IMG/VR virus record: IMGVR_UViG_3300032240_000498
Location: 1-27,160 of that record
Origin: a virus
Length of the DNA stretch: 27,160 bases
Strand: one strand, 5' to 3'
In this document: one piece after another, positions 4,709-26,916 of the stretch
Numbering within the stretch: position 1 is the first letter of the stretch
How the letters are laid out: every line of letters starts with the position of its first letter
Notes under the pieces: generated by a model
What the model was told of the DNA's origin: nothing
The model's input: only the letters and a program-made list of their open reading frames with translations
Databases searched by the model: none
Made by a program: the position numbers and the translations under genes

Positions 4709-4992
4709 AATCACTCAAAGAAATACAACAACTTTCAAAGCAAAAGACCTACGTTCTTGGTAAGGTATTTGCTGAAGGTGATTGGGTTGAAAATGTTAAT
4801 GGTGACGTAGGAAAGATTCACAGACGTGGTGTAAACTATATCATTGCAGTAACAGAAGATGGCAAGATGTTTCGTGCATGGGTAAAAGATCTCAAAGAAT
4901 ACTGTGGGAATGAGAATACATACATGTCACCCAAGCAGAAAGTCAAAGCATTTATAAATAAAAATAAACGTAAAGAGAACAATGACGATTGA
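4705..4992 (+). CDS. Small conserved-type phage protein with SH3/KOW-like strand pattern
   Basis: A 95-residue protein. The middle section, GDWVENVNGDVGKIHRRG then YIIAVTEDGKMFRAWVKDL, reads as alternating beta strands with glycine turns, like a small SH3/KOW-type barrel. The tail is basic and ends in a Lys/Asn/Asp-rich segment. Its function is unknown. Its ATG overlaps the preceding stop (ATGA), and its last bases contain the late box at 4953 for the next gene, whose start lies inside this one. Confidence 0.6.
   Translation: MKSLKEIQQLSKQKTYVLGKVFAEGDWVENVNGDVGKIHRRGVNYIIAVTEDGKMFRAWVKDLKEYCGNENTYMSPKQKVKAFINKNKRKENNDD
4953..4960 (+). promoter_or_regulatory. T4-type late promoter box
   Basis: A perfect TATAAATA, 21 bases before the ATG of the Asp-rich gene at 4982. 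The expected start of transcription is near 4967. It marks the following gene as late. Confidence 0.65.
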
Positions 4993-6004
4993 CGAGTTTT
5001 CACAACAGTTATTAGAAAGCCTTTTTGCTCGCCTTGAAGAAGCCAAATGCATGAAGTGCGGTAAGGAAGAGTGTGAGTGTGACGACGATGACGACGATGA
5101 TGATGAAGGCGAAGCAAAGAAAAAGAAAATGAAAGAATCGAAAGATGAAGAAGATGATGACGATGATGAAGAGGATGATGCTGGTAAAGGCAAGAAAAAG
5201 AAAATGAAAGAAGGTTGGAAAGACGAGGAAGATGACGATGATGATGACGATGATGAAGGTGAGTCGAAAGGTAAGAAAAAATCTCGTGCTTTCAAAAAGA
5301 TTAAAGAATCTTTAGACAAAAGATTAGAAGAAGCAAAGAAGTCAAAAAAGAAAGACAAGGATGATGACGATGATGATGACGATGATGACGATGACGACGA
5401 TGATATGGATGAGAGCTTTTCTTTAGCAGAAAAAAAAACTGTAAAAATGGATGGCAAAGATGATAATGGTTTTAAATCTTGCTGGAAAGGATATAGGAAA
5501 GCGGGCACCAAAGTAAAAGGTGATAAAGAAGTTAACAACTGTGTTCCTAAAGAAGAAACACAATATGAAGAACTAAAAGGTGGACAGAAAAAAATCGACG
5601 CCAATCATAATGGTAAAATTGATGGACAGGATTTCAAAATCCTTCGTGGCAAGAAAAACAAAACTGTTAAAGAAATGTTAACAGTTACTGAAGCAGCTCC
5701 TAAGGCAGTTAAAAAAAAAGTAGAGATTGAGGTGATGCCAAACATCCCCACTCCAAACGACCCAGAGCCACCTAAAGCACCAGAAGACATGGCGACTAAA
5801 ACGCCAAAGAAAAATAAAAAAACAGTAAAAGAAGAAACAGAACAACTTGATGAAAAGAAACTTTCGGCAAAAGAAACAGCAAAGAAAGAAAAGTTTGTTA
5901 AAGGAATGAAAAAAAAGTTTGGTTCTTTCAAATCAAAGTATGGTGATAGAGCAAAAGATGTGATGTATGGAACTGCCACATCGATGGCAAAGAAGGCAGC
6001 ATAA
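4982..6004 (+). CDS. Asp-rich modular low-complexity protein with EF-hand-like loop (virion/prohead-type candidate)
   Basis: A 340-residue mosaic. The N-terminus MTIDEFSQQLLE is followed by a Cys cluster (CMKCGKEECEC, residues 23-33) that could bind metal. Four runs of Asp (longest about 15, residues 127-141) alternate with Lys-rich blocks. Next come a SCWKGYRKAGTKVKG module (167-180), an EF-hand-like loop DANHNGKIDGQD at 206-217 with acidic or Asn residues at positions 1, 3, 5, 9 and 12, a Pro-rich linker, and a C-terminal KYGDRAKDVMYGTAT module (319-333). As I recall, similar modules recur in marine myovirus proteins. I/L-x-E sites (LLE|S, IKE|S, LEE|A twice) match the T4 gp21 prohead protease consensus, so a core or internal head role is possible. 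The Asp tracts are GAY triplet repeats likely to vary in length. Confidence 0.65.
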   Translation: MTIDEFSQQLLESLFARLEEAKCMKCGKEECECDDDDDDDDEGEAKKKKMKESKDEEDDDDDEEDDAGKGKKKKMKEGWKDEEDDDDDDDDEGESKGKKKSRAFKKIKESLDKRLEEAKKSKKKDKDDDDDDDDDDDDDDDMDESFSLAEKKTVKMDGKDDNGFKSCWKGYRKAGTKVKGDKEVNNCVPKEETQYEELKGGQKKIDANHNGKIDGQDFKILRGKKNKTVKEMLTVTEAAPKAVKKKVEIEVMPNIPTPNDPEPPKAPEDMATKTPKKNKKTVKEETEQLDEKKLSAKETAKKEKFVKGMKKKFGSFKSKYGDRAKDVMYGTATSMAKKAA

Positions 6005-13622: not shown

Positions 13623-13961
13623 ATGAATCCACAGTCAGCAAAAGCAAAGGGTCGCCGTCTGCAACAGTGGGTAAGAGATAAACTCATTGAGATGCTTGAG
13701 GTTCACCCTGAAGATATTGAATCTCGTAGCATGGGAGCAGGTGGCGAAGATCTTATCATGGCTCGTGCTGCAAGGTTAAAGTTTCCTCATAGCATCGAGT
13801 GCAAGAACGTGGAGAAGCTAAATATATGGGATGCCTATGAGCAAGCATCTGCCAACTCTGGTGACTATGAACCACTTGTCGTCATTAAAAAGAATGGTAA
13901 AAAACCACTGGTTGTGGTAGACGCAGAGTATTTCATACGTTTATTCGGAGAGAAAAAATGA
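13623..13961 (+). CDS. Putative PD-(D/E)xK nuclease (resolvase/Vsr-like fold)
   Basis: 112 residues. A basic N-terminal helix (AKAKGRRLQQWVRDKL) is followed by a nuclease core: GAGGEDLIM with Asp43, then SIECKN with Glu59 and Lys61, the D...ExK signature. A strand and helix follow (PLVVIKKNG, PLVVVDAEYF). The family cuts DNA; a role in junction resolution, recombination or host DNA degradation is possible. Its ATG follows the GGAGG that lies in the terminator stem, suggesting late-only translation as for T4 gene 49. It overlaps the next gene by four bases (ATGA). Confidence 0.75.
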   Translation: MNPQSAKAKGRRLQQWVRDKLIEMLEVHPEDIESRSMGAGGEDLIMARAARLKFPHSIECKNVEKLNIWDAYEQASANSGDYEPLVVIKKNGKKPLVVVDAEYFIRLFGEKK

Positions 13962-14629
13962 CATTAGATCTTCATAACTTTTTCAAGTATTATGATGATA
14001 AAAATGAAAATCATGTAGCGGCAGTTCAATGGTTGGAAGACCATCTGCCCGAAAAGTTCATGGATGATTCAGAAACTGAGTGGGTTAATATTTTCAGAAC
14101 AAAACCACCCACTCCAGCAGTTTTGAATGTTCCATACTTCAACCAAGTAGATAACTATAGAGATGCACAAAGAACATGCAACTCTTCGTCATGCGCTATG
14201 TGCCTTGCTTTCCTCAAGCCAGGTAGCATTAAAGGAGACGACGATTACATTAGAAAAGTATTTGCGATTGGTGACACTACAGATCATGCCGTTCAGACGA
14301 AGGTTCTGGCAGGTTATGGTGTTAAGTCACACTTTAGTTACGGTCTTTCTTTTGCTGATATTGATCGCAGCCTCGATGCTGGGAAGCCAGTTGTTATTGG
14401 TATCCTCCACCGTGGTCCTCTATCTGCTCCTACTGGTGGGCACATGGTTGTAGTGATCGGCAAGACGCCAGATGGTAAAGGTTATTTCATTAATGATCCA
14501 TATGGTTCATGCAATGATAACTACACTGGTCCAGTAACAAATGGTAAAGGAACAATCTATACCAAAGCAATGCTCAAGTATCGTTGGTGCCCAGGTGGCA
14601 ACGACGGTTGGGGTCGCATTTTCGATTGA
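13958..14629 (+). CDS. C39-like papain-fold peptidase with N-terminal shared module
   Basis: 223 residues. Residues 4-50 (LHNFFKYYDDKNENHV, then [14 protein letters not shown]) are nearly the same as the N-terminus of the next gene. After a Pro-rich linker comes a peptidase C39_2-like domain: VPYFNQVDNY at 58, the catalytic-type Cys74 in TCNSSSCAM, His162 in GGHMVVVIG and Asp180 in NDPYG. No signal peptide. It probably cuts peptide cross-links or another host/virion protein. It lies between a nuclease and a GH19 lysin, coupled to the former by ATGA. Confidence 0.78.
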   Translation: MTLDLHNFFKYYDDKNENHVAAVQWLEDHLPEKFMDDSETEWVNIFRTKPPTPAVLNVPYFNQVDNYRDAQRTCNSSSCAMCLAFLKPGSIKGDDDYIRKVFAIGDTTDHAVQTKVLAGYGVKSHFSYGLSFADIDRSLDAGKPVVIGILHRGPLSAPTGGHMVVVIGKTPDGKGYFINDPYGSCNDNYTGPVTNGKGTIYTKAMLKYRWCPGGNDGWGRIFD

Positions 14630-14647
14630 TAACCAAGGAGAACAATA

Positions 14648-15361
14648 ATGGCAAGAATCGATTTACATAACTTTTTCAAGTTTTATGATGACAAAAATGA
14701 CAACCACGTTAAAGCAGTTCAGTGGTTAGAGGATCATCTTCCAAAAGAATATATGGAAGATAACGCTGAGTGGGCTGAGATTTACAGAAAAAAGAATGAA
14801 GCCGCTGCTCCAGCCTCAAGTAGTGGCGGCCCTGTTCTCGTAACAAAAAAGCAACTTGCTTATATTTGGAACTGTGGCGAGAATCTTATTGAAGACGCAG
14901 AAGTTGACGAAATGAATCATGGTCTGAACTTCTTTAAGATTAATACTCCAGTTCGCATTTGTCATTTTATGTCACAGATTTCACATGAATCTGGTGGTGG
15001 AAGATATAAGGAAGAACTTGCTTCTGGTGCCGACTACGAAGGTCGTTCAGATCTTGGTAATACACAACCAGGAGACGGCAAAAAGTTTAAGGGTGCTGGA
15101 TACATTCAAATGACTGGTCGTGCAAACTATCAGGCATTTGCAAACTACATTAAAGACCCTAATGTTATGCAGGGTGTTACCTATGTTGCCAAGAAGTATC
15201 CAATGACTTCTGCTGGTTTCTGGTGGCACAATAATAACATGAATGCTTTGTGTGATTCAAATCCATCAGTTGACCAAGTAACTAAGCGTGTTAACGGTGG
15301 ATATAACGGTCTCGATGACCGTAAGAGATACTATGCTCGTTGTTGTGAGGTTATTAAATGA
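14648..15361 (+). CDS. GH19-type endolysin (chitinase/lysozyme fold) with same N-terminal module
   Basis: 237 residues. The N-terminal 50 residues duplicate the module of the preceding C39 gene, joined by an Ala/Ser/Gly linker to a GH19-like catalytic domain from about residue 65: [12 protein letters not shown] with catalytic-type Glu114, [32 protein letters not shown] and a closing [20 protein letters not shown]19 phage lysins cleave the glycan of peptidoglycan. A ribosome-binding site AAGGAG precedes ATG 14648. No signal peptide, so export would need a holin. The stop overlaps the next ATG (ATGA). Confidence 0.88.
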
Positions 15362-15828
15362 AGACATACGATCAATTTATAACTGAGGCTCAGGCACGTT
15401 GCCAGAGAACATCTATGGATGAGTTTGAAAAACTTGTTCATAAGTTTCTGCCTTATTGCTTTAAGGAGCTAAAGTTAAAATCGATCCCACCTCTTCATTT
15501 TGATAACAAATCTAATGGTCATTTACATGTCAAAGATATTCCAGGTGTGACAATTATTAAGGATAGTGGATTCAGTCAAGTCAAAGGAACTTTTGGTCAG
15601 ACCAGTCAAAAAAATAGAATCGTAGTGAATATAGCAAACCGTCAACCACTTGACGCATTGAGAACTTTAGCACATGAATTAGTCCATTACCATCAACACA
15701 TACATGGTGTTCATGGTAATGGAGATACAGGAAGCCCCACTGAAAATGAGGCAAATGTTCGTTCTGCTATTATCATGAGGAACTTTGACTTCTCACATCC
15801 TAACGTATTTAAATTGCCTCCTTTGTAA
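15358..15828 (+). CDS. Zinc metallopeptidase with T4 capsid-targeting-like N-terminus
   Basis: 156 residues. A gluzincin-type zinc site is visible: AHELVHYHQ with HExxH at 106-110, and downstream PTENEANVR (about 127-135), which can supply the third Glu ligand. The first 11 residues, [11 protein letters not shown], closely match the capsid-targeting sequence of T4 internal proteins as I recall it (MKTYQEFIAEA), and ITE|A fits the gp21 protease cut consensus (L/I-x-E). By family logic the protein could be packed in the head, trimmed, and injected with DNA. It starts by ATGA overlap with the GH19 gene. An alternative role is a third wall-active enzyme of the lysis cluster. Confidence 0.8.
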
Positions 15829-16815: not shown

Positions 16816-17205
16816 TTATTTTTGTGCCCAAGGACATGCCTTTGGCATATAAACTACAGCATGACCAGTTGCTACTGCTTGTTGGTTAATCTCAGTTCCA
16901 TCGGCAAGGAAGAGACGACCAACAGTTCTACCATAAAGATCTTTGGTAACTCTTTCAATTTTAATATCTTGATTGAGAACTAAATCAGATAACCATTTCT
17001 GTGCTGCTGGACCACCGATAGGATCTTTTTTACCGTGCTTGTTATTAGTTACTTCTGGAGCATCAATACAAGCAAGACGAATCTTTTCACCAGCTGCTGT
17101 GGTTACAGTATCTCCATCATGAACTCCAACAATAACATCTGCCTTAACAGCAAGTGTTGCTAACGAAAGGGCAGCAATCACTGCACCAATTTTAAAAAGT
17201 TTCAT
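16816..17205 (-). CDS. Secreted thermonuclease (SNase/TNase family)
   Basis: 129 residues. A Sec signal peptide (MKLFKIGAVIAALSLATLAV, cut near VKA) is followed by an OB-fold nuclease: VHDGDTVTTAAGEKIRLACI, IDAPE with Glu51, Arg43 and Asp48, and YGRTVGRLF with Arg93/97, corresponding to the catalytic and calcium-binding residues of staphylococcal nuclease. It would degrade DNA or RNA in the periplasm or outside the cell. It is the last gene of a seven-gene minus-strand operon, two bases after the previous gene. The domain is slightly shorter than staphylococcal nuclease. Confidence 0.9.
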   Translation of the reverse strand: MKLFKIGAVIAALSLATLAVKADVIVGVHDGDTVTTAAGEKIRLACIDAPEVTNNKHGKKDPIGGPAAQKWLSDLVLNQDIKIERVTKDLYGRTVGRLFLADGTEINQQAVATGHAVVYMPKACPWAQK

Positions 17206-20869: not shown

Positions 20870-20943
20870 GTCTCGGTAGCTCAGATGGATAGAGCATCTG
20901 CCTTCTAAGCAGTTGGTCACAGGTTCAAGTCCTGTCCGAGACG
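20870..20943 (+). tRNA. tRNA-Arg(TCT)
   Basis: Acceptor GTCTCGG pairs with CCGAGAC, the anticodon loop CTTCTAA gives TCT, and the T-loop is TTCAAGT. 74 bases, with no encoded CCA. It decodes AGA. Confidence 0.95.
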
Positions 20944-20946
20944 CTC

Positions 20947-21018
20947 GGGAGATTGGCGCAGCGGTAGCGCAGCTGCTTTACACGCAGACGGTCATTGGTT
21001 CGAATCCGATATTTCCCA
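20947..21018 (+). tRNA. tRNA-Val(TAC)
   Basis: Acceptor GGGAGAT pairs with ATTTCCC with one wobble, anticodon loop TTTACAC gives TAC, T-loop TTCGAAT. The anticodon stem has a G-A mismatch at its base. No encoded CCA. It lies three bases after tRNA-Arg. Confidence 0.9.
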
Positions 21019-21027
21019 TATAAGATT

Positions 21028-21243
21028 ATGAATACATACTATATCTCTTTAATAGTGCTCTGTGCGATGATATATATTATCTGGCAGGATCCAAATGTGC
21101 CAGAATATATCAACCTCAGAATAAAACTTCTTCACATTGATTTTATTCGGTGGAGAATGGCAAGGAAAATGAGAAAAGAACTTAAGAGTGATATGAAAAC
21201 ACTTGAAAAATGGATAAAAAAAAATGGCAAGGATAAGATGTAA
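21028..21243 (+). CDS. Small membrane protein, 71 residues
   Basis: ATG 21028 is preferred, since an upstream in-frame start would lie inside tRNA-Val. N-terminal TM segment (YYISLIVLCAMIYIIW), then a very basic amphipathic region (RWRMARKMRKELKSDMK). Unknown family. It overlaps the next gene by 20 bases. Confidence 0.55.
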   Translation: MNTYYISLIVLCAMIYIIWQDPNVPEYINLRIKLLHIDFIRWRMARKMRKELKSDMKTLEKWIKKNGKDKM

Positions 21244-21481
21244 TGCTTGTGGAACAGAGTTAGAAGTTTATCAAGCAAATAAAAGTAAAGCGTGTGGATG
21301 TGACAACCATACTATGATAAGATTAGATAGAAATGGATTGCCTATTATCACAGGTAACGATCTATCATTGGTTACTGGCATCGAAGGAGTCAGCAAACCT
21401 AAAGAAAAAAAGCTTGACACTCCCACACCAATGGAGTATACTAAAAGGATTCCAAGAAAAATGGAGTTTGAAGTTCGCTAG
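21224..21481 (+). CDS. Small zinc-ribbon-like protein, 85 residues
   Basis: Starts MARIRCNACGTELEVYQ with a CxxC pair and a later CGC giving a likely zinc site (C6, C9, C24, C26), then LPIITGNDLSLV, similar to small cyanophage proteins of unknown function. The stop shares one base with tRNA-Ser, and the tRNA promoter is inside its 3' end. Confidence 0.65.
   Translation: MARIRCNACGTELEVYQANKSKACGCDNHTMIRLDRNGLPIITGNDLSLVTGIEGVSKPKEKKLDTPTPMEYTKRIPRKMEFEVR
21414..21442 (+). promoter_or_regulatory. Sigma70-like promoter for tRNA-Ser(GCT) and possibly the porin
   Basis: TTGACA (21414-21419), 17-bp spacer, TATACT (21437-21442). No other promoter is visible before the porin at 21607. Confidence 0.7.
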
Positions 21482-21568
21482 GAAGATTGGCCGAGAGGTT
21501 TAAGGCAGCAGTTTGCTAAACTGCCGAAGGAGTCAATCCTTCCGATGGTTCGAATCCATCATCTTCCG
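21481..21568 (+). tRNA. tRNA-Ser(GCT)
   Basis: Acceptor GGAAGAT pairs with ATCTTCC; anticodon loop TTGCTAA gives GCT; long class II variable arm; T-loop TTCGAAT. 88 bases, no CCA encoded. Confidence 0.95.
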
Positions 21569-21570
21569 TT

Positions 21571-21586
21571 GCCCTCTGGGCATTTT
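21571..21586 (+). terminator. Weak hairpin after tRNA-Ser
   Basis: GCCC-TCT-GGGC followed by ATTTT. The stem is short, so leaky termination into the porin is likely. Confidence 0.4.
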
Positions 21587-21606
21587 GTAAATTAACAATA
21601 AAAAGT

Positions 21607-23082
21607 ATGAAAATCAAACAACTGATGCTTGCGCCTGTTGCTTTGGGAATGATTGCTCCTGTTGCTGCGAATGCCGCAGACCTTAACCTGGCAGCAGTCA
21701 ATCAATATTCCTCTAGTGATCAGGTAACAAGTGTCTCACAATTTTCCGATGTGAAACCTACTGACTGGGCTTACCAAGCACTCTCTAATCTGGTTAATCG
21801 TTATGGTTGTGTTGCTGGTTATCCTAATGGCACCTTTGGTGGTGCTAAAGCAATGACTCGTTTTGAGGCAGCAGCACTTCTGAATGCTTGCCTTGATCGT
21901 GTCACTGAAACTACCGATGAACTTAAGCTCCTTCTAAAAGAGTTTGGTTCAGAACTTACTGTTCTTCGTGGTCGTGTAAATGGTCTTGAAGCAAAAGTTG
22001 GTCAACTTGAAGCAACCCAGTTCTCCACCACTACCAAACTTCATGGTGAAACTTTCTTCACTTTGGCTGGTATTCCTGGAGCAGTTACTAATGCTGGTCA
22101 AAGTGTGGGTTCTACCACATTTAATTATGATCTTCGTTTGAAACTGGATACTTCCTTCACTGGTAAAGATTTGCTACGCACTCGCCTTCGTGCTGGTAAC
22201 TTTGTCAACTCTCCTTTTGATACGGATGGTTCACTTTTCCAACTGGATAAAGCAACTGGAACTAACAATCTAGTTAAGATTGATCGTCTGTATTATCAGT
22301 TCCCTGTTACTAAAGGTCTGACTGCTACTGCTGCTGCTATCATTGAAAACAATGATCTAGCATGGATTCCTTCAGCATATGAATCTAACATTTTAAACTT
22401 CTTTGATGTTGCTGGTGCTCCTGGTGTTTATAATAAAGTCAAGGGTGCTGGTGGTGGTTTCCAGTATATTCAACCTGGCAAACAAGGAGTTATTTTGGGA
22501 GCTAACTATATTTCTCAATCTGGTAATGATTCTACCAAAGGTGAGTTCAACTCTGCTTCTGCTCTGAACCTGATGGCACAAGTTGGTTATCGTGCTCCTC
22601 AGTGGGGTGCTGCTTTTGGTTATCGTTATGGCACTCAGGGCACTGCTCCAACCGTATTTAATGGTGTTGGTGGTGCTACTGGTGAACTTGCTAATAACCA
22701 ATATTCCAATGGTTACGCAATCAATGCTTACTGGCAACCACAAAAATCTGGTATCGTTCCTTCAGTTTCTGGTGCTTATAGCTGGAACACTGTGAGTGGT
22801 GTTTCTACTCCCAATGGTGCTACCAATAATAAAACTTGGTTCGTCGGTCTTCAGTGGAGCGATGTATTTGCCAAGGGTAATAATGCTGGTATTGCTTATG
22901 GTCAACCTGGCAACGCTAATGGTGTGACTTCAAATGCTTCCATCATGGAAATCTTCTACAAGTATAAGGTGTCTGATAACATCAGCATCACTCCTGCGAT
23001 TCTGTATGTTTCCAACAACCAACAGTTCCAAAATGCTTCCTCTAACTGGGGTGGCGTCATTCAAACCAAGTTCACTTTCTGA
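21607..23082 (+). CDS. Cyanobacterial-type outer-membrane porin (SLH + OprB-like)
   Basis: 491 residues. Signal peptide ends MIAPVAANA-AD. Residues about 41-98 form an SLH domain (SQFSDVKPTDWAYQAL, GCVAGYPNGTFGGAKAMTRF) that anchors to the cell wall. A coiled coil follows (TDELKLLLKEFGSELTVL to VGQLEA). From about 140 a 16-18-strand-type beta barrel continues to the terminal Phe (GGVIQTKFTF), the usual signal for outer-membrane insertion. This is the architecture of Synechococcus Som-type porins, which let small solutes cross the outer membrane. It sits between two tRNA-Ser genes and six bases upstream of a permease gene, so it is probably host-derived and working with it. Confidence 0.9.
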   Translation: MKIKQLMLAPVALGMIAPVAANAADLNLAAVNQYSSSDQVTSVSQFSDVKPTDWAYQALSNLVNRYGCVAGYPNGTFGGAKAMTRFEAAALLNACLDRVTETTDELKLLLKEFGSELTVLRGRVNGLEAKVGQLEATQFSTTTKLHGETFFTLAGIPGAVTNAGQSVGSTTFNYDLRLKLDTSFTGKDLLRTRLRAGNFVNSPFDTDGSLFQLDKATGTNNLVKIDRLYYQFPVTKGLTATAAAIIENNDLAWIPSAYESNILNFFDVAGAPGVYNKVKGAGGGFQYIQPGKQGVILGANYISQSGNDSTKGEFNSASALNLMAQVGYRAPQWGAAFGYRYGTQGTAPTVFNGVGGATGELANNQYSNGYAINAYWQPQKSGIVPSVSGAYSWNTVSGVSTPNGATNNKTWFVGLQWSDVFAKGNNAGIAYGQPGNANGVTSNASIMEIFYKYKVSDNISITPAILYVSNNQQFQNASSNWGGVIQTKFTF

Positions 23083-23088
23083 TAAGTT

Positions 23089-24129
23089 ATGGATCTATTA
23101 ATGGGTATCTGGGAGAAAGTTTTGTTTCTCCCTTACATCATCGGCATTATGATTGTCGGTGGTCTTGTAAAACAATACGGAGTGCTTAACGAAGTATTCG
23201 TAGCACTTCGCAAAACATTTAAATCAAATCGTTTAGTTGTTGCTGCTACTGCTCTCGCTGGTGGTGTTCTACCCATTGAAGGGCGTGTCGTTATGTCGGC
23301 ACCCCTTCTGGATTCTATCTCCAGTGACAAATCACAATCTCGTTCCAAGTTTGGTATTGTAGATTATCTTTCTACTCACCACTATTACTGGTGGTCACCA
23401 CTTGAGAAAACAGTTGTGCTTCCGATGGCAGCATTAGGTATCTCGTATACCACACTTATGTCACATACGATTATTCCTCTTGCGATTGTTCTAACATTTG
23501 CTGGAGTTTATATCTTCAAGTATGTGAAAGAAACGGACGTAGAAATCGTTGAAGAAACTCGTTCTTTTAGTTGGAACCGACTTCTGAAAGGTTGGGCACC
23601 TATTGTAGCTACAATGTGGTTCCTCGTTTGTTATGGTGACCCCGACTATCCTTACCTCTTTGCTCTTTGGTTTGGTGGTCTTGCTACTTACTATTCATAC
23701 ATCTGTAATGATTGGAAGTGGGGTCGTTATATCAACTGGAAGTTTGCTGGTCTTGCTGCTATAGTTCTTGTCTTGGCAGGAGCATTTAGTGAACTCAAAG
23801 AACCTGTCTTGGAATATCTGAAGATTACTTCAGCACAAGGTTCGGTTGCTCTGGTAGCAGTTTCTGTGATCGGATTCTTGGCATCATTTGCTATGGGTTC
23901 TTCGGGTAAGTATGCTGGTATGGCAACTTTGCTTGCTCAAGCATTTGGTGTTGGTTACTTGACATGGTTTCTATGTATTGAGTATGCTGGATACATCATC
24001 TCACCAATGCATAAGTGTCTGCTGATTGGTCAGCAATACTTTGGCACTCCTATCAGAACTTACTATAAGGTTCTTGGTATGTTGATTGCTGCTTTGGTTG
24101 GATACGGAGCACTGACTCTAGTGTTCTAG
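23089..24129 (+). CDS. DUF401-like inner-membrane permease
   Basis: 346 residues with about nine hydrophobic segments. Key family-like motifs: ALAGGVLPIEGRVVMSAPLL, DYLSTHHYYWWSPLEKTVVL, the long GFLASFAMGSSGKYAGMATL, and near the end YAGYIISPMHKCLLIGQQYF. These follow the DUF401 integral-membrane family (ion-transporter-like fold), where the LPxxGxxxxSAPLL and SPxHxCL motifs are conserved. The substrate is unknown; an organic or inorganic anion is an inference from the fold. It starts six bases after the porin stop with no ribosome-binding site of its own, suggesting coupled translation. The stop lies against the hairpin-promoter region before tRNA-Ser(TGA). Confidence 0.8.
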   Translation: MDLLMGIWEKVLFLPYIIGIMIVGGLVKQYGVLNEVFVALRKTFKSNRLVVAATALAGGVLPIEGRVVMSAPLLDSISSDKSQSRSKFGIVDYLSTHHYYWWSPLEKTVVLPMAALGISYTTLMSHTIIPLAIVLTFAGVYIFKYVKETDVEIVEETRSFSWNRLLKGWAPIVATMWFLVCYGDPDYPYLFALWFGGLATYYSYICNDWKWGRYINWKFAGLAAIVLVLAGAFSELKEPVLEYLKITSAQGSVALVAVSVIGFLASFAMGSSGKYAGMATLLAQAFGVGYLTWFLCIEYAGYIISPMHKCLLIGQQYFGTPIRTYYKVLGMLIAALVGYGALTLVF

Positions 24130-24171
24130 GGGGTTGACAAACCCCCCGACCTCCTATATAATGTGGAGGTC
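24129..24171 (+). promoter_or_regulatory. Sigma70 promoter embedded in two inverted repeats
   Basis: TTGACA (24134-24139), 17 bp, TATAAT (24157-24162): a perfect consensus. The -35 lies in GGGGGTT-GACA-AACCCCC, the -10 in GACCTCC-(10 bases)-GGAGGTC. It drives tRNA-Ser(TGA), and the first repeat may also close the permease transcript. Confidence 0.75.
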
Positions 24172-24178
24172 AACAAAT

Positions 24179-24263
24179 GGAAGTGTGTCCGAGTGGTTGA
24201 AGGAACTTGTCTTGAAAACAAGCATGGTGAAAGCCATCGTGGGTTCGAATCCTACCACTTCCG
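24179..24263 (+). tRNA. tRNA-Ser(TGA)
   Basis: Acceptor GGAAGTG pairs with CACTTCC, anticodon loop CTTGAAA gives TGA, variable arm about 14 bases, T-loop TTCGAAT. 85 bases, no CCA encoded. Confidence 0.95.
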
Positions 24264-24387
24264 TTGGAGTTACTCGTTATGCAGATAGCATAGAAGGAGG
24301 CTCCATTTTCAACCTATCATTTGCGCTGGAGCTGATAATCCAGAATGCCGTGATAGCGGGGCGGGGGTTAATCCTCCTCCCCAACCT
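24264..24387 (+). other. Structured spacer between tRNA-Ser and tRNA-Pro
   Basis: No convincing gene. TATGC-AGATA-GCATA makes a small hairpin (24275-24289), GGAG/CTCC flank it, CTGGA/TCCAG another, and GGGGCGGGGG-TTAAT-CCTCCTCCCC (about 24359-24383) a strong one with one mismatch. An AAGGAGG occurs at 24293 without a good start codon. It could be processing or regulatory structure, or a decayed RNA gene. Confidence 0.4.
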
Positions 24388-24461
24388 CGGGGCGTAGGTC
24401 AGCTTGGTAGACCGCCTGCTTTGGGAGCAGGATGTCGCAGGTTCAAATCCTGCCGCTCCGA
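24388..24461 (+). tRNA. tRNA-Pro(TGG)
   Basis: Acceptor CGGGGCG pairs with CGCTCCG (one wobble), anticodon loop TTTGGGA gives TGG, T-loop TTCAAAT. 74 bases, no CCA encoded. Confidence 0.94.
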
Positions 24462-24480
24462 TTCTTCTTATGGAGATTTA

Positions 24481-24744
24481 ATGTTAGTAATTTACACCCG
24501 TGATAACTGCCCATACTGCAGTAAACTCAAAATTGTTTTAGATAGTTTTTCTGTCAAATACAAGACACTCAATTTAGGGGTTGACTTTGACCGCCCAGCA
24601 TTCTATACTGAGTTTGGTCAAGGTGCTACTTTTCCACAAGTAGTTATTGATGGTATGATTATGGGTGGTTGTACAGATACAATTGAATATCTAACCAGCA
24701 TTGGTTGCCTACAAGAAGAAAAAGACATGGAGTGTATGGTATGA
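24481..24744 (+). CDS. Glutaredoxin
   Basis: 87 residues from ATG 24481, with GGAG at 24472-24475; an upstream in-frame ATG lies inside tRNA-Pro and is rejected. Thioredoxin fold with the redox motif CPYC near residues 10-13, cis-Pro segment TFPQVVIDG and GGCTD near the C-terminus. It is expected to reduce the C-terminal CxxC of the NrdA encoded in this window, or other substrates, in the cytoplasm. It overlaps the antitoxin-like gene by four bases (ATGA). Confidence 0.92.
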   Translation: MLVIYTRDNCPYCSKLKIVLDSFSVKYKTLNLGVDFDRPAFYTEFGQGATFPQVVIDGMIMGGCTDTIEYLTSIGCLQEEKDMECMV

Positions 24745-24914
24745 AAACGATTACAGAAGAAACTTTTTGCCACGACTTTGATGAAATCATGGACAACGTG
24801 ATGCTCAACAAAGAAAGTTTTATCATCACTACACCTGATGGCGGTGACGTTCTTCTAATGCCGTATGAAAACTATGCACGAATACAAGGGGAATTAACTC
24901 AGTTGGTAGAGTAG
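24741..24914 (+). CDS. Phd/YefM-like antitoxin (orphan), ending inside tRNA-Ala
   Basis: 57 residues: MKTITEETFCHDFDEIMDNV, then SFIITTPDGGDVLLMPYENY. This follows the N-terminal DNA-binding fold of Phd/YefM antitoxins (short strand, helix, IIT strand, LLM strand, YENY helix). It lacks the usual long toxin-binding tail and has no RelE/Doc-like neighbour, so it may repress transcription or counter a host toxin. The last 27 bases of the gene are also the 5' part of tRNA-Ala. The start overlaps the glutaredoxin stop. Confidence 0.75.
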   Translation: MKTITEETFCHDFDEIMDNVMLNKESFIITTPDGGDVLLMPYENYARIQGELTQLVE

Positions 24915-24960
24915 CGCCTTTGCAAGGCGAATGTCAGCGGTTCGAGTCCGCTATTCTCCA
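24888..24960 (+). tRNA. tRNA-Ala(TGC)
   Basis: Acceptor GGGGAAT pairs with ATTCTCC (one wobble), anticodon loop TTTGCAA gives TGC, T-loop TTCGAGT. Its first 27 bases are the end of the antitoxin-like gene. Confidence 0.93.
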
Positions 24961-24964
24961 TAAG

Positions 24965-25057
24965 GGGGGTGTAGCTCAATTGGCAGAGCGGAAAGCTTAT
25001 ACCTTTCGTATACGGCAGATTACCGTGCGGTTGGGGGTTCGAGTCCCTCCGCCCCTA
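24965..25057 (+). tRNA. tRNA-like gene, anticodon TAT (Ile) with unusually long variable region
   Basis: Acceptor GGGGGTG pairs with CGCCCCT (two wobbles), D-arm GCTC/GAGC, anticodon stem GAAAG/CTTTC with loop CTTATAC (TAT), T-arm GGGGG-TTCGAGT-CCCTC. About 25 bases lie between the anticodon stem and T-stem, including ACGG/CCGT, making a 93-base class II-like molecule. Isoleucine tRNAs normally have a short variable loop, so identity is uncertain; a short insertion is an alternative. Confidence 0.7.
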
Positions 25058-25074
25058 TCCTACAATGAATTATT

Positions 25075-25323
25075 ATGACAACACCAAAACAAACAAAAGA
25101 AGAATTTCTGTATCCAACACCTCCAATTAATCCAGATACCGACATGAGTTTTTTGGATATTACATTAATTAATAACATCAATAATTTTTCAATACACGTT
25201 GGATATCTTAATGCAATGGCAATTGGTGGAAAGAAAAAACCTGAAGACGTTTATCAAGAAATTAAAAAACTTTATAAAGCAATGAAATCATCTCGTAAAT
25301 CGCTGAGGGGATCATGGTTCTAA
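25075..25323 (+). CDS. Hypothetical protein, 82 residues
   Basis: Begins MTTPKQTKEEFLYPTPPINP, with an Asn/Ile-rich middle and a Lys/Arg-rich C-terminus. No clear ribosome-binding site or family. It overlaps the next gene by ten bases, which supports real coding. Confidence 0.5.
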   Translation: MTTPKQTKEEFLYPTPPINPDTDMSFLDITLINNINNFSIHVGYLNAMAIGGKKKPEDVYQEIKKLYKAMKSSRKSLRGSWF

Positions 25324-25931
25324 CACAAGGATTAACAGGAATTGAAGAAGAAGAGCCTGGATTTGAGATTACTCATCTTTCATTCAGAAAAAAAAGATCT
25401 AACAATATGTGTGGTGGTCCAGTAGATTACTACATCGGTAACATCGTATTTCGTTTGACTAACGAATCTGCGAAAGGTCGCATGGAATACATTCTGAAAG
25501 AAAATGAAAGAGTTCGTGTAGCACCAGATGAAGAGTTACACAACAAGTATTACGATGGTCTTCATTTCAAGTTTGGAAATAAGGATTTGGAAGATGTGAT
25601 AAAAAGTGATGACCCAGAAGAAGATGGTGCAATAGAAGAAGATGGTCAAAAGTTTTATAAGCTTGACATCATCAACAAAGAAGGTATCAAAAATGAAGAT
25701 GTATTCATCTATGCTTACCGTCGTAACATGGATCCCCTACATGATTTCGTACAATACATTGAGAAGTTTGATTGTTATCGAATGCACGAATACTTCCAAG
25801 ATACACCAGTAGTTCGTGGTATAATACAGTATCTCCAAGACATGAAAGATGGTAAACCAAATCCTAGCCGCACTGTCTACCATGAGCAGTTCCTCAACAC
25901 GCTCACCAACCTCTGCTGGTGGTGGGACTAG
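25314..25931 (+). CDS. Unknown acidic protein, 205 residues
   Basis: Mixed alpha/beta, acidic, with the central segment KSDDPEEDGAIEEDGQKFYK and Trp-rich C-terminus (TNLCWWWD). No signal peptide. No family recognised. Good ATG and long intact frame. Its end overlaps the zinc-ribbon gene at 25882. Confidence 0.6.
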   Translation: MVLTQGLTGIEEEEPGFEITHLSFRKKRSNNMCGGPVDYYIGNIVFRLTNESAKGRMEYILKENERVRVAPDEELHNKYYDGLHFKFGNKDLEDVIKSDDPEEDGAIEEDGQKFYKLDIINKEGIKNEDVFIYAYRRNMDPLHDFVQYIEKFDCYRMHEYFQDTPVVRGIIQYLQDMKDGKPNPSRTVYHEQFLNTLTNLCWWWD

Positions 25932-26064
25932 AATCTGTTCCCGTTGCAAAACTGAATACCCCCTTGACAGCACCCACTACCAAGTGGTAAAATACTTTCG
26001 TACAGGATTCTCCTACTACTGCAATGACTGCAACAAACCAAAGCTGCGTGAAGACCATTCTTGA
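25882..26064 (+). CDS. Zinc-ribbon small protein, 60 residues
   Basis: Start taken at ATG 25882; an in-frame ATG at 25849 would extend it 11 residues. After a Ser/Thr-rich start it has ICSRCKTEYPLDSTHYQV and YYCNDCNKPKL, two CxxC pairs 27-30 residues apart, typical of a zinc ribbon such as those preceding phage HNH nucleases, but without the HNH part. It overlaps both neighbours. Confidence 0.6.
   Translation: MSSSSTRSPTSAGGGTRICSRCKTEYPLDSTHYQVVKYFRTGFSYYCNDCNKPKLREDHS
25964..25993 (+). promoter_or_regulatory. Sigma70-like promoter inside the zinc-ribbon gene
   Basis: TTGACA (25964-25969), 18-bp spacer, TAAAAT (25988-25993), upstream of the small genes at 26024-26677. Confidence 0.5.
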
Positions 26065-26287
26065 TCGTTTCCCCTATCGTTACGTTCAAGTAGGCACCCT
26101 AGAAATCAATGGCAAACCTGACTGCCGTATTCAAAAAGTAGATTCATATACTGGTCGCTACCGTGATATGTATCTTTGTGATAACGAGATGCAGTTTATG
26201 ACAGCGATTGAAGATTTTGAATACACCAAATGGCTTGACCCAGACACAGTTCCATGCTACGTTAAAGAGGATGACTACGATGAATGA
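26024..26287 (+). CDS. Small hypothetical protein, 87 residues
   Basis: MTATNQSCVKTILDRFPYRY, then beta-type VGTLEINGKPDCRIQKVD and an acidic C-terminus. Resembles small cyanophage proteins; function unknown. It overlaps the gene before by 41 bases and the next by eight. Confidence 0.55.
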   Translation: MTATNQSCVKTILDRFPYRYVQVGTLEINGKPDCRIQKVDSYTGRYRDMYLCDNEMQFMTAIEDFEYTKWLDPDTVPCYVKEDDYDE

Positions 26288-26477
26288 TAAAGCACTTTAT
26301 CAACTTGAGAGAGCAATCGATGCTCTAACACAAATGGCAAAGTATATGCGTGAAGAACAAGCACCGAGCACTCCAGTAAAGTTTAATGAGCACATGGGTG
26401 TTTTTGCGCCTTATACATATTATACAGAGTCACGGACGGACTATAACAGCACTGGTGGAGTCAACGTTACCCTTTGA
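26280..26477 (+). CDS. Small hypothetical protein, 65 residues
   Basis: Start at ATG 26280; an in-frame TTG 72 bases upstream is unlikely. MNDKALYQLERAIDALTQMA is a clear amphipathic helix, followed by a Tyr/Thr-rich segment. No family recognised. Its stop lies six bases before the next ATG. Confidence 0.5.
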   Translation: MNDKALYQLERAIDALTQMAKYMREEQAPSTPVKFNEHMGVFAPYTYYTESRTDYNSTGGVNVTL

Positions 26478-26482
26478 ATGCT

Positions 26483-26677
26483 ATGAATCCTGTTAGAATG
26501 AGAATCGTTGAAGAACTTGACAACGGAGATGAAGTTATTACTTACTTTGATGTCTCTATGATTGACAAAAGATTTTACTATGTGTATGATGAAGTTAATC
26601 ATGGACCCTTTGACGATTTTGATGATGCTGTGCAGGCAGCATACGAGGATTTGATTCCTCAACCTGTCTCGGAATGA
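26483..26677 (+). CDS. Small acidic hypothetical protein, 64 residues
   Basis: ATG 26483 is chosen over a TTG at 26474 that overlaps the previous stop. MRIVEELDNGDEVITYFDVS, then FDDFDDAVQAAYEDL: strongly acidic, possibly a DNA-mimic or inhibitor by charge, but no evidence beyond that. Confidence 0.5.
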   Translation: MNPVRMRIVEELDNGDEVITYFDVSMIDKRFYYVYDEVNHGPFDDFDDAVQAAYEDLIPQPVSE

Positions 26678-26833
26678 CATTAAACTTGCCCTGGTCGGGA
26701 ACCCCCTCGATGAGTTTCCAATTTCTCTTTAAAGAATTGGTGGTGCGGATGGGATAACTCCCGCCCAGTTTCCTGCCTCTGGTCAAAGGGCAGGTGGCGA
26801 GCCTGCTCACACGGGGGTTGACCTCCCCCACTC
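26678..26833 (+). other. Gene-free structured stretch before tRNA-Leu
   Basis: No convincing gene. Inverted repeats: CCAATT/AATTGG near 26719-26741, GGGA/TCCC near 26750-26762, CCTGCC/GGGCAGG near 26773-26795, and GGGGG-TTGACCT-CCCCC (26813-26829). The last echoes the hairpin at 24129. Higher GC than its surroundings. It could be a structured ncRNA or processing region. Confidence 0.45.
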
Positions 26834-26916
26834 GCTCCAGTGGTGGAACGGTAGACACAGCGGACTTAGAATCCGCCGCCTTAAAAAGCGTGGAAGTTCA
26901 AATCTTCTCTGGAGCA
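26834..26916 (+). tRNA. tRNA-Leu(TAG)
   Basis: Acceptor GCTCCAG pairs with CTGGAGC, anticodon stem GCGGA/TCCGC with loop CTTAGAA gives TAG, class II variable arm, T-loop TTCAAAT. 83 bases, no CCA encoded. Confidence 0.94.

Follow-up and report, generated by a model that had tools for sequence, protein, structure and literature searches.

The closest described counterparts of the protein analysed here are the internal proteins IPI, IPII and IPIII of bacteriophage T4. They combine a 10-residue N-terminal targeting sequence and an (I/L)xE|A cleavage site with a small basic body, and mutagenesis has assigned targeting to residues 4 and 7 and processing to residues 8 and 10 (PMC9026906). T4 also packages an enzyme in its head, the ADP-ribosyltransferase Alt, which is injected and has expressed but unpackaged relatives, ModA and ModB. 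Minimal zincins made of an HExxH motif and a Glu have been described in phage proteins as the MPTase domains of polyvalent proteins (Iyer et al., 2017, PMC5512222). Finally, a cytidylyltransferase/NMNAT, a SAM hydrolase and an APH kinase belong to the enzymes detected by mass spectrometry (MS) in virions of the cyanophages S-CREM2, S-SCSM1 and S-SM1.

We analysed a window of 27,160 nucleotides, a 27-kb fragment comprising positions 1-27,160 of the IMG/VR virus record IMGVR_UViG_3300032240_000498. It shares the gene order gp61 - nrdA - nrdB - RusA-like nuclease - C39 peptidase - lysozyme with T4-like cyanophages (Kyanoviridae), and its virus is a T4-like cyanophage with freshwater cyanobacteria as hosts. 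The open reading frame at 15358-15828 (+) encodes a protein of 156 amino acids that starts with MKTYDQF and continues to HELVHYHQ...ENEAN. Its start codon is sound and unambiguous. The ATG at 15358 directly follows a TAA and overlaps the stop codon of the upstream lysozyme-like gene as ATGA, a putative ribosome-binding site, GAGG, can be read directly from the sequence 7 nt 5' of it (15347-15350, +), and start and leader are kept throughout the window clade, a set of 12 sequences that comprises 11 distinct homologues of 61-94% identity and the window protein itself. Residues 1-10 (15358-15387, +) form a putative T4-type capsid-targeting leader, for which cleavage by the prohead protease is predicted after E10 (ITE|A). 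The remaining 146 residues (15388-15825, +) correspond, according to the family alignment, an AlphaFold2 (AF2) model and zincin structural neighbours, to a predicted mature zinc metallopeptidase of 16.5 kDa and pI 9.4, compared to pI values of 9.6 and 9.7 for mature IPII and IPIII. Thus, the window protein resembles the T4 internal proteins in the key residues of its N-terminal 10-residue targeting sequence, its cleavage site, its small basic body and a gene position just downstream of a lysozyme gene. It differs from them in that the bodies are unrelated, that the internal proteins have not been described as peptidases, and that the phages belong to different families (Straboviridae versus Kyanoviridae) and infect different hosts.

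The initial annotation had likened the leader to the N-termini of all three T4 internal proteins. In the T4 record this holds for IPII and IPIII, which both start with MKTYQEFIAEA and share 8/11 residues with the window leader; IPI, in contrast, begins with MKTFKEFTSTTTPVSTITEA. We then scanned 88,247 ATGs, on both strands and in all frames of 12 T4-like genomes and the window, for identity to the T4 leader. The numbers of ATGs with 3, 4, 5, 6, 7, 8, 9, 10 and 11 matching residues are 5765, 782, 78, 10, 4, 4, 2, 0 and 2, respectively. At least 8/11 matches are therefore found at just eight ATGs, two of them in T4 genes, one in the window, three in phage B23 and one each in DSL-LC02 and DSL-LC03. 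All eight are gene starts. Because such ATGs are so few and exclusively mark gene starts, chance does not explain the match, and a fortuitous N-terminus was set aside.

Within the window clade the leader is conserved at the positions that matter in T4. Position 4 is Y or F, position 7 is F, position 8 is I or L and position 10 is E in 12/12 sequences, while position 9 takes six different residues. The window protein itself has the aromatic residue 4 and F7 of the T4 capsid-targeting sequence, and its leader directly abuts the (L/I)xE prohead-protease site. Comparisons outside the leader were ignored for L004, which is one codon out of register, and dN/dS on a leader of only 33 nt is too noisy to be informative. 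Distant homologues have either a shorter leader or none: more distant clades begin with M(R/K)FKEFLTESKK, MYFSEWRK or MHTFKSFLIEE, and homologues of the S-SRM01 type lack the leader altogether and start with MSLIGKRKGRP. Since the leader varies or is missing in the distant clades, it is separable from the peptidase. Moreover, the S-SRM01 homologue is encoded in the replication region, which together with its missing leader indicates that the enzyme can serve unpackaged, as ModA and ModB do in the case of Alt. The initial annotation had asked for conservation of the leader apart from the catalytic domain, which is what the close homologues show, and had regarded homologues lacking the leader as evidence against packaging. 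Such homologues are confined to distant clades of the S-SRM01 type, and on sequence comparison they read as modular gain or loss of the leader rather than as a refutation.

The initial annotation had also suggested looking for the leader on other proteins of the genome. To extend this to related genomes, we used a 7-position score that was fixed before the later genomes were added (K/R at position 2, T/S at 3, Y/F at 4, F at 7, a hydrophobic residue at 8, E/D at 10 and A/S at 11, with a score of at least 6 required). In the 12 T4-like genomes and the window, this score is reached by 30 of 9,984 ATGs in N-terminal zones versus 1 of 13,685 internal ATGs, and 300 permuted versions of the motif gave a mean of 0.13 and a maximum of 2 matches. 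In T4 it recovers ipII, ipIII and 61.1, and the 30 leader proteins have diverse, unrelated bodies. Furthermore, 32 starts of the form MKx[FY]xxF[LIMV]xE occur in 16 viral contigs that carry the peptidase family, in a single orientation within each contig, and the reversed pattern does not occur in them. Recurrent leader-bearing bodies are a cytidyltransferase, an approximately 104-aa protein (PHROG 1742), a DPBB-type lytic transglycosylase and the peptidase. In L145 and S-SRM01 the peptidase gene adjoins that of a leader-bearing cytidyltransferase. Related genomes thus encode further proteins with the same leader, and MS detects several of these proteins in virions. Together with the conservation of the leader in the window clade, this supports the part of the original proposal that concerns a T4-style targeting leader joined to an independent zinc-peptidase domain.

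Some of the leader proteins deserve a description of their own. The region L136:3462-4393 contains three successive leader ORFs, starting with MKTFKEFRELSES, MKNFKSFITEE and MHTFKSFLIEE, the last of which is the peptidase, and this capsid-cargo cassette lies 3' of a structural-looking gene. At L122:4704-5305 (B23 122703-123304, complement), next to baseplate genes, two adjoining genes encode small basic proteins whose leaders, MKTYSQFITEA and MKTYREFISEA, are almost identical to that of T4, and the S-CRM01 homologue of the longer one is annotated as an acetyltransferase. T4 gp61.1 (NC_000866 18966-19130, complement; 54 aa, MKTFKEFIKEDMVAG) also scores as a leader protein and, judged by its sequence, may be an unrecognised T4 internal protein. 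A small domain of the pattern CxxCxMWxxPxxCTAVxGxI is fused to the peptidase in L200 (L200:3941-4771) and in S-SRM01 stands alone after the leader MKSFQEFLFEE (47292).

These data also bear on a different view of the N-terminus, in which its 11 residues merely make up helix one of the peptidase fold and resemble T4 because both converged on a common type of amphipathic N-terminus. Amphipathic N-termini are indeed common, and the AF2 model shows residues 4-14 as a helix. However, this helix is separate from the fold and modelled with low confidence (pLDDT 62-68), the linker that follows the leader varies in length, leaderless homologues keep an intact catalytic core, and the motif sits on unrelated bodies and is hardly ever internal. 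We therefore find this explanation barely plausible.

Next we asked whether the leader class is found among proteins of purified virions. For S-CREM2, whose virion proteome comprises 52 proteins (PMC10665884 Table 3), we searched for the anchored leader motif at the N-termini of the complete set of 219 annotated proteins, 167 of which are undetected in virions. All five matches, a SAM hydrolase, an APH-like kinase, a cytidylyltransferase and the two unknowns gp13 and gp136, are in the tabulated virion proteome, compared to 0/167 undetected proteins (Fisher p = 0.00065, for a loose motif that was relaxed after some of the N-termini were known). With the stricter MKx[FY]xxF[ILMV]xE, 3/3 matches are in that table (p = 0.013). 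Leader-bearing NMNAT/cytidyltransferases are also reported from virions of S-SCSM1 (PMC9602691) and S-SM1 (PMC3037559). S-SCSM1 QFG06286, by contrast, has the leader yet is not annotated as a virion protein, and the authors of the S-CREM2 study caution that non-structural proteins may co-purify (PMC10665884). The three virion reports, in the sections drawn upon (PMC10665884, PMC9602691, PMC3037559), do not mention a targeting leader, and in the set of papers searched here "capsid targeting" and "cyanophage" occur together only in a T4 review. The virion data thus suggest that the leader class marks virion cargo in cyanophages. The enzymes concerned share the leader class of the window protein and differ from it in their activities.

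In the same S-CREM2 virion table, a Cas9-like protein (OR473000 7704-10313, complement) has FASFMAEA at residues 19-26 and a segment, MKAERLGLVSDGHGS, that resembles one following the leaders of cytidyltransferases; it is a possible injected Cas9-type nuclease. S-CREM2 gp108, which is annotated as a metallopeptidase, was considered as a member of the peptidase family and turned out to be a different, secreted-looking protein.

Processing of the leader would depend on a prohead protease of the gp21 type. Homologues of gp21 are present in 5/5 related cyanophages examined (37-44% identity). At the position where T4 gp23 is cut (SFLTE|A), the cyanophage sequences read SFLSE|A in S-SRM01, NFLSE|A in P-SSM2, ILTE|T in Syn9 and MLNE|V in S-PM2. 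Cyanophage gp23 thus keeps an (L/I/M)xE site, so the (hydrophobic)-x-E rule seems to be retained in cyanophages, and the ITE|A of the window protein fits it. The proposal that this is a gp21-type cut site is in line with these gp23 sites and with the invariant I/L8 and E10, and we infer that a prohead protease of the window phage would cut there; the fragment does not extend to the head genes of this phage, its gp21 and core proteins included. Once loaded into the prohead, the enzyme could alternatively act on core or cargo proteins within the virion and so assist maturation, rather than work in the next host. Virion MPTases have been proposed to process polypeptides inside the head (PMC5512222), and the peptidase is small and has a single domain. 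This reading is nevertheless unlikely, as gp21 already serves prohead maturation in the group, leaderless relatives exist, and the peptidase is accessory, most sequenced Kyanoviridae giving no tblastn match to it.

The mature part was predicted in the initial annotation to be a metallopeptidase on the basis of HELVHYHQ, and the family-wide alignment bears this out. In 29 sequences H106, E107 and H110 of the zinc-binding HExxH motif (HELVH, residues 106-110; 15673-15687, +) are invariant, as is E129, the presumed third zinc ligand, in S-P-T-E-N-E-A (15742-15744, +). The AF2 model (pLDDT 78.4, pTM 0.77) shows the minimal zincin arrangement, with a helix, a small sheet and two C-terminal helices, one of which contains HExxH (97-115) and the other the Glu (127-146). 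Its best structural neighbours are zincins, namely Wss1/SPRTN (Z 7.2-8.0; for Wss1, the top neighbour, Z 8.0, 4.6 Å, 104 aligned residues) and also IrrE/PprI (M78) and CapP; since the Z values are moderate, the claim is limited to the fold class. Alignment and model thus point to a zincin-type metallopeptidase with HExxH and a downstream Glu. Foldseek alone gave no match with E < 0.001, the best being SPRTN at 0.038, and a sequence search of solved structures retrieved nothing relevant. Pfam Peptidase_M78 (IrrE-like) matches the window protein with 16.3 bits (E 0.0085), below the gathering cut-off of 22 bits, and 19/19 family members at E <= 1, the best at 1.6e-4. Pfam MPTase-PolyVal (PF18818) does not match the window protein but 7/19 relatives (best E 0.038), all NCBIfam matches are sub-threshold, and PADLOC gives only sub-threshold capP-like matches. 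Members of the SprT/SPRTN/Wss1 group have an HExxH motif with a His as third ligand. Membership in this group was rejected, since in the 29-sequence alignment the invariant residue after HExxH is E129 and no downstream His is invariant.

Relatives of the peptidase are encoded in 477 viral stretches, the best 80 of which were kept. A search of bacterial and archaeal GTDB genomes gave 41 pattern candidates, none of which was confirmed, so that no host origin was traceable; the family was found only in viruses. Some relatives combine the peptidase with a NUDIX, dCMP-deaminase or 5'-nucleotidase domain in one protein, and fusions of this kind to nucleotide-handling enzymes have been described for injected polyvalent proteins (PMC5512222). 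Unlike these proteins, the window protein has a single domain, stays below the Pfam thresholds and carries a T4-type leader, predicted to serve packaging.

The peptidase gene is preceded by genes for a C39-like cysteine peptidase (13958-14629, +; Pfam PF13529, E 1.8e-14) and for a GH19-like endolysin or lysozyme (14648-15361, +; PHROG 181 endolysin, E 2.7e-43), with which it has a 4-bp overlap. A lysozyme occupies the same place in homologous loci, in some relatives as a GH24-like enzyme next to a retained peptidase. The order C39 - lysozyme - metallopeptidase is constant in the window clade, and this, with the overlap, would fit a late lysis module with an incidental leader, in which the three proteins jointly attack the cell envelope. 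However, by eye the peptidase has no obvious signal peptide, the folds closest to it are those of cytoplasmic or effector zincins (Wss1/SPRTN, IrrE, CapP) rather than peptidoglycan peptidases, distant homologues have no adjoining lysozyme, and in S-CREM2 the C39 and lysozyme genes are paired but the peptidase is missing. T4, too, has ipIII and ipII after its lysozyme gene e. Hence we regard a role in lysis as quite improbable. The late promoter CTAAATA was uninformative, with 5 sites in the window versus 5.1 expected.

Several other features of the window were of note. The C39 peptidase and the lysozyme share an N-terminal DLHNFFKxYDDKNxNH domain (PHROG 3617; 13958-15361), which in relatives heads different lysozymes. 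An SNase-type nuclease gene with a signal-like N-terminus is inverted in the window (16816-17205, -) and lies directly 3' of the peptidase gene on the + strand in L003, L010, L133 and L134, which makes it a mobile neighbour. The protein encoded at 4982-6004 is very acidic and contains long runs of Asp as well as an EF-hand-like segment, DANHNGKIDGQDF, and the counterpart of this region encodes virion proteins in S-CREM2 and S-PM2. Moreover, the downstream part of the window contains a cyanobacterial-type SLH/OprB porin gene (21607-23082) and, at 20870-26916, eight genes for tRNAs (Arg, Val, Ser, Ser, Pro, Ala, Ile, Leu).

By analogy with T4, we consider it likely that the window protein is a capsid-targeted 16.5-kDa basic zinc peptidase, trimmed by the prohead protease and packaged and injected like the internal proteins. 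As the prohead assembles, the first approximately ten residues would dock the precursor into its core, and a gp21-type protease would cut after I-T-E and free the mature enzyme. The latter would stay among the packaged DNA, be ejected with the genome and, when infection begins, be active in the cytoplasm of the cyanobacterium, where it would cleave a host protein. That this protein is a regulator or a defence factor is a guess. Packaging is the step for which the analogy and the independent virion-proteome test of the leader class argue well. As predicted enzyme cargo of the head the peptidase would be comparable to Alt, from which it differs in chemistry and targeting sequence. Among zincins, the M78 and CapP models match it weakly; relative to IrrE/PprI, CapP and Wss1/SPRTN, its closest folds, it stays below curated cut-offs, and its Glu contrasts with the His of SPRTN.

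On balance we lean slightly towards the broader view that T4-like cyanophages have a general, swappable, capsid-addressed delivery system, in which one leader would load mixed enzymes for injection and the same peptidase would be packaged or left unpackaged depending on the phage. Its arsenal would include the zinc peptidase, the SAM hydrolase, the kinase and the NMNAT/cytidylyltransferase, and possibly the Cas9-like nuclease and the DPBB transglycosylase. The route by which enzymes enter cyanophage virions has so far been unexplained, and authors were unable to exclude contamination. A recognisable leader would allow the enzymes injected by each T4-like cyanophage to be predicted at the sequence level. 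With the zinc peptidase, a ready-made protease would arrive together with the DNA, for immediate host takeover or counter-defence.
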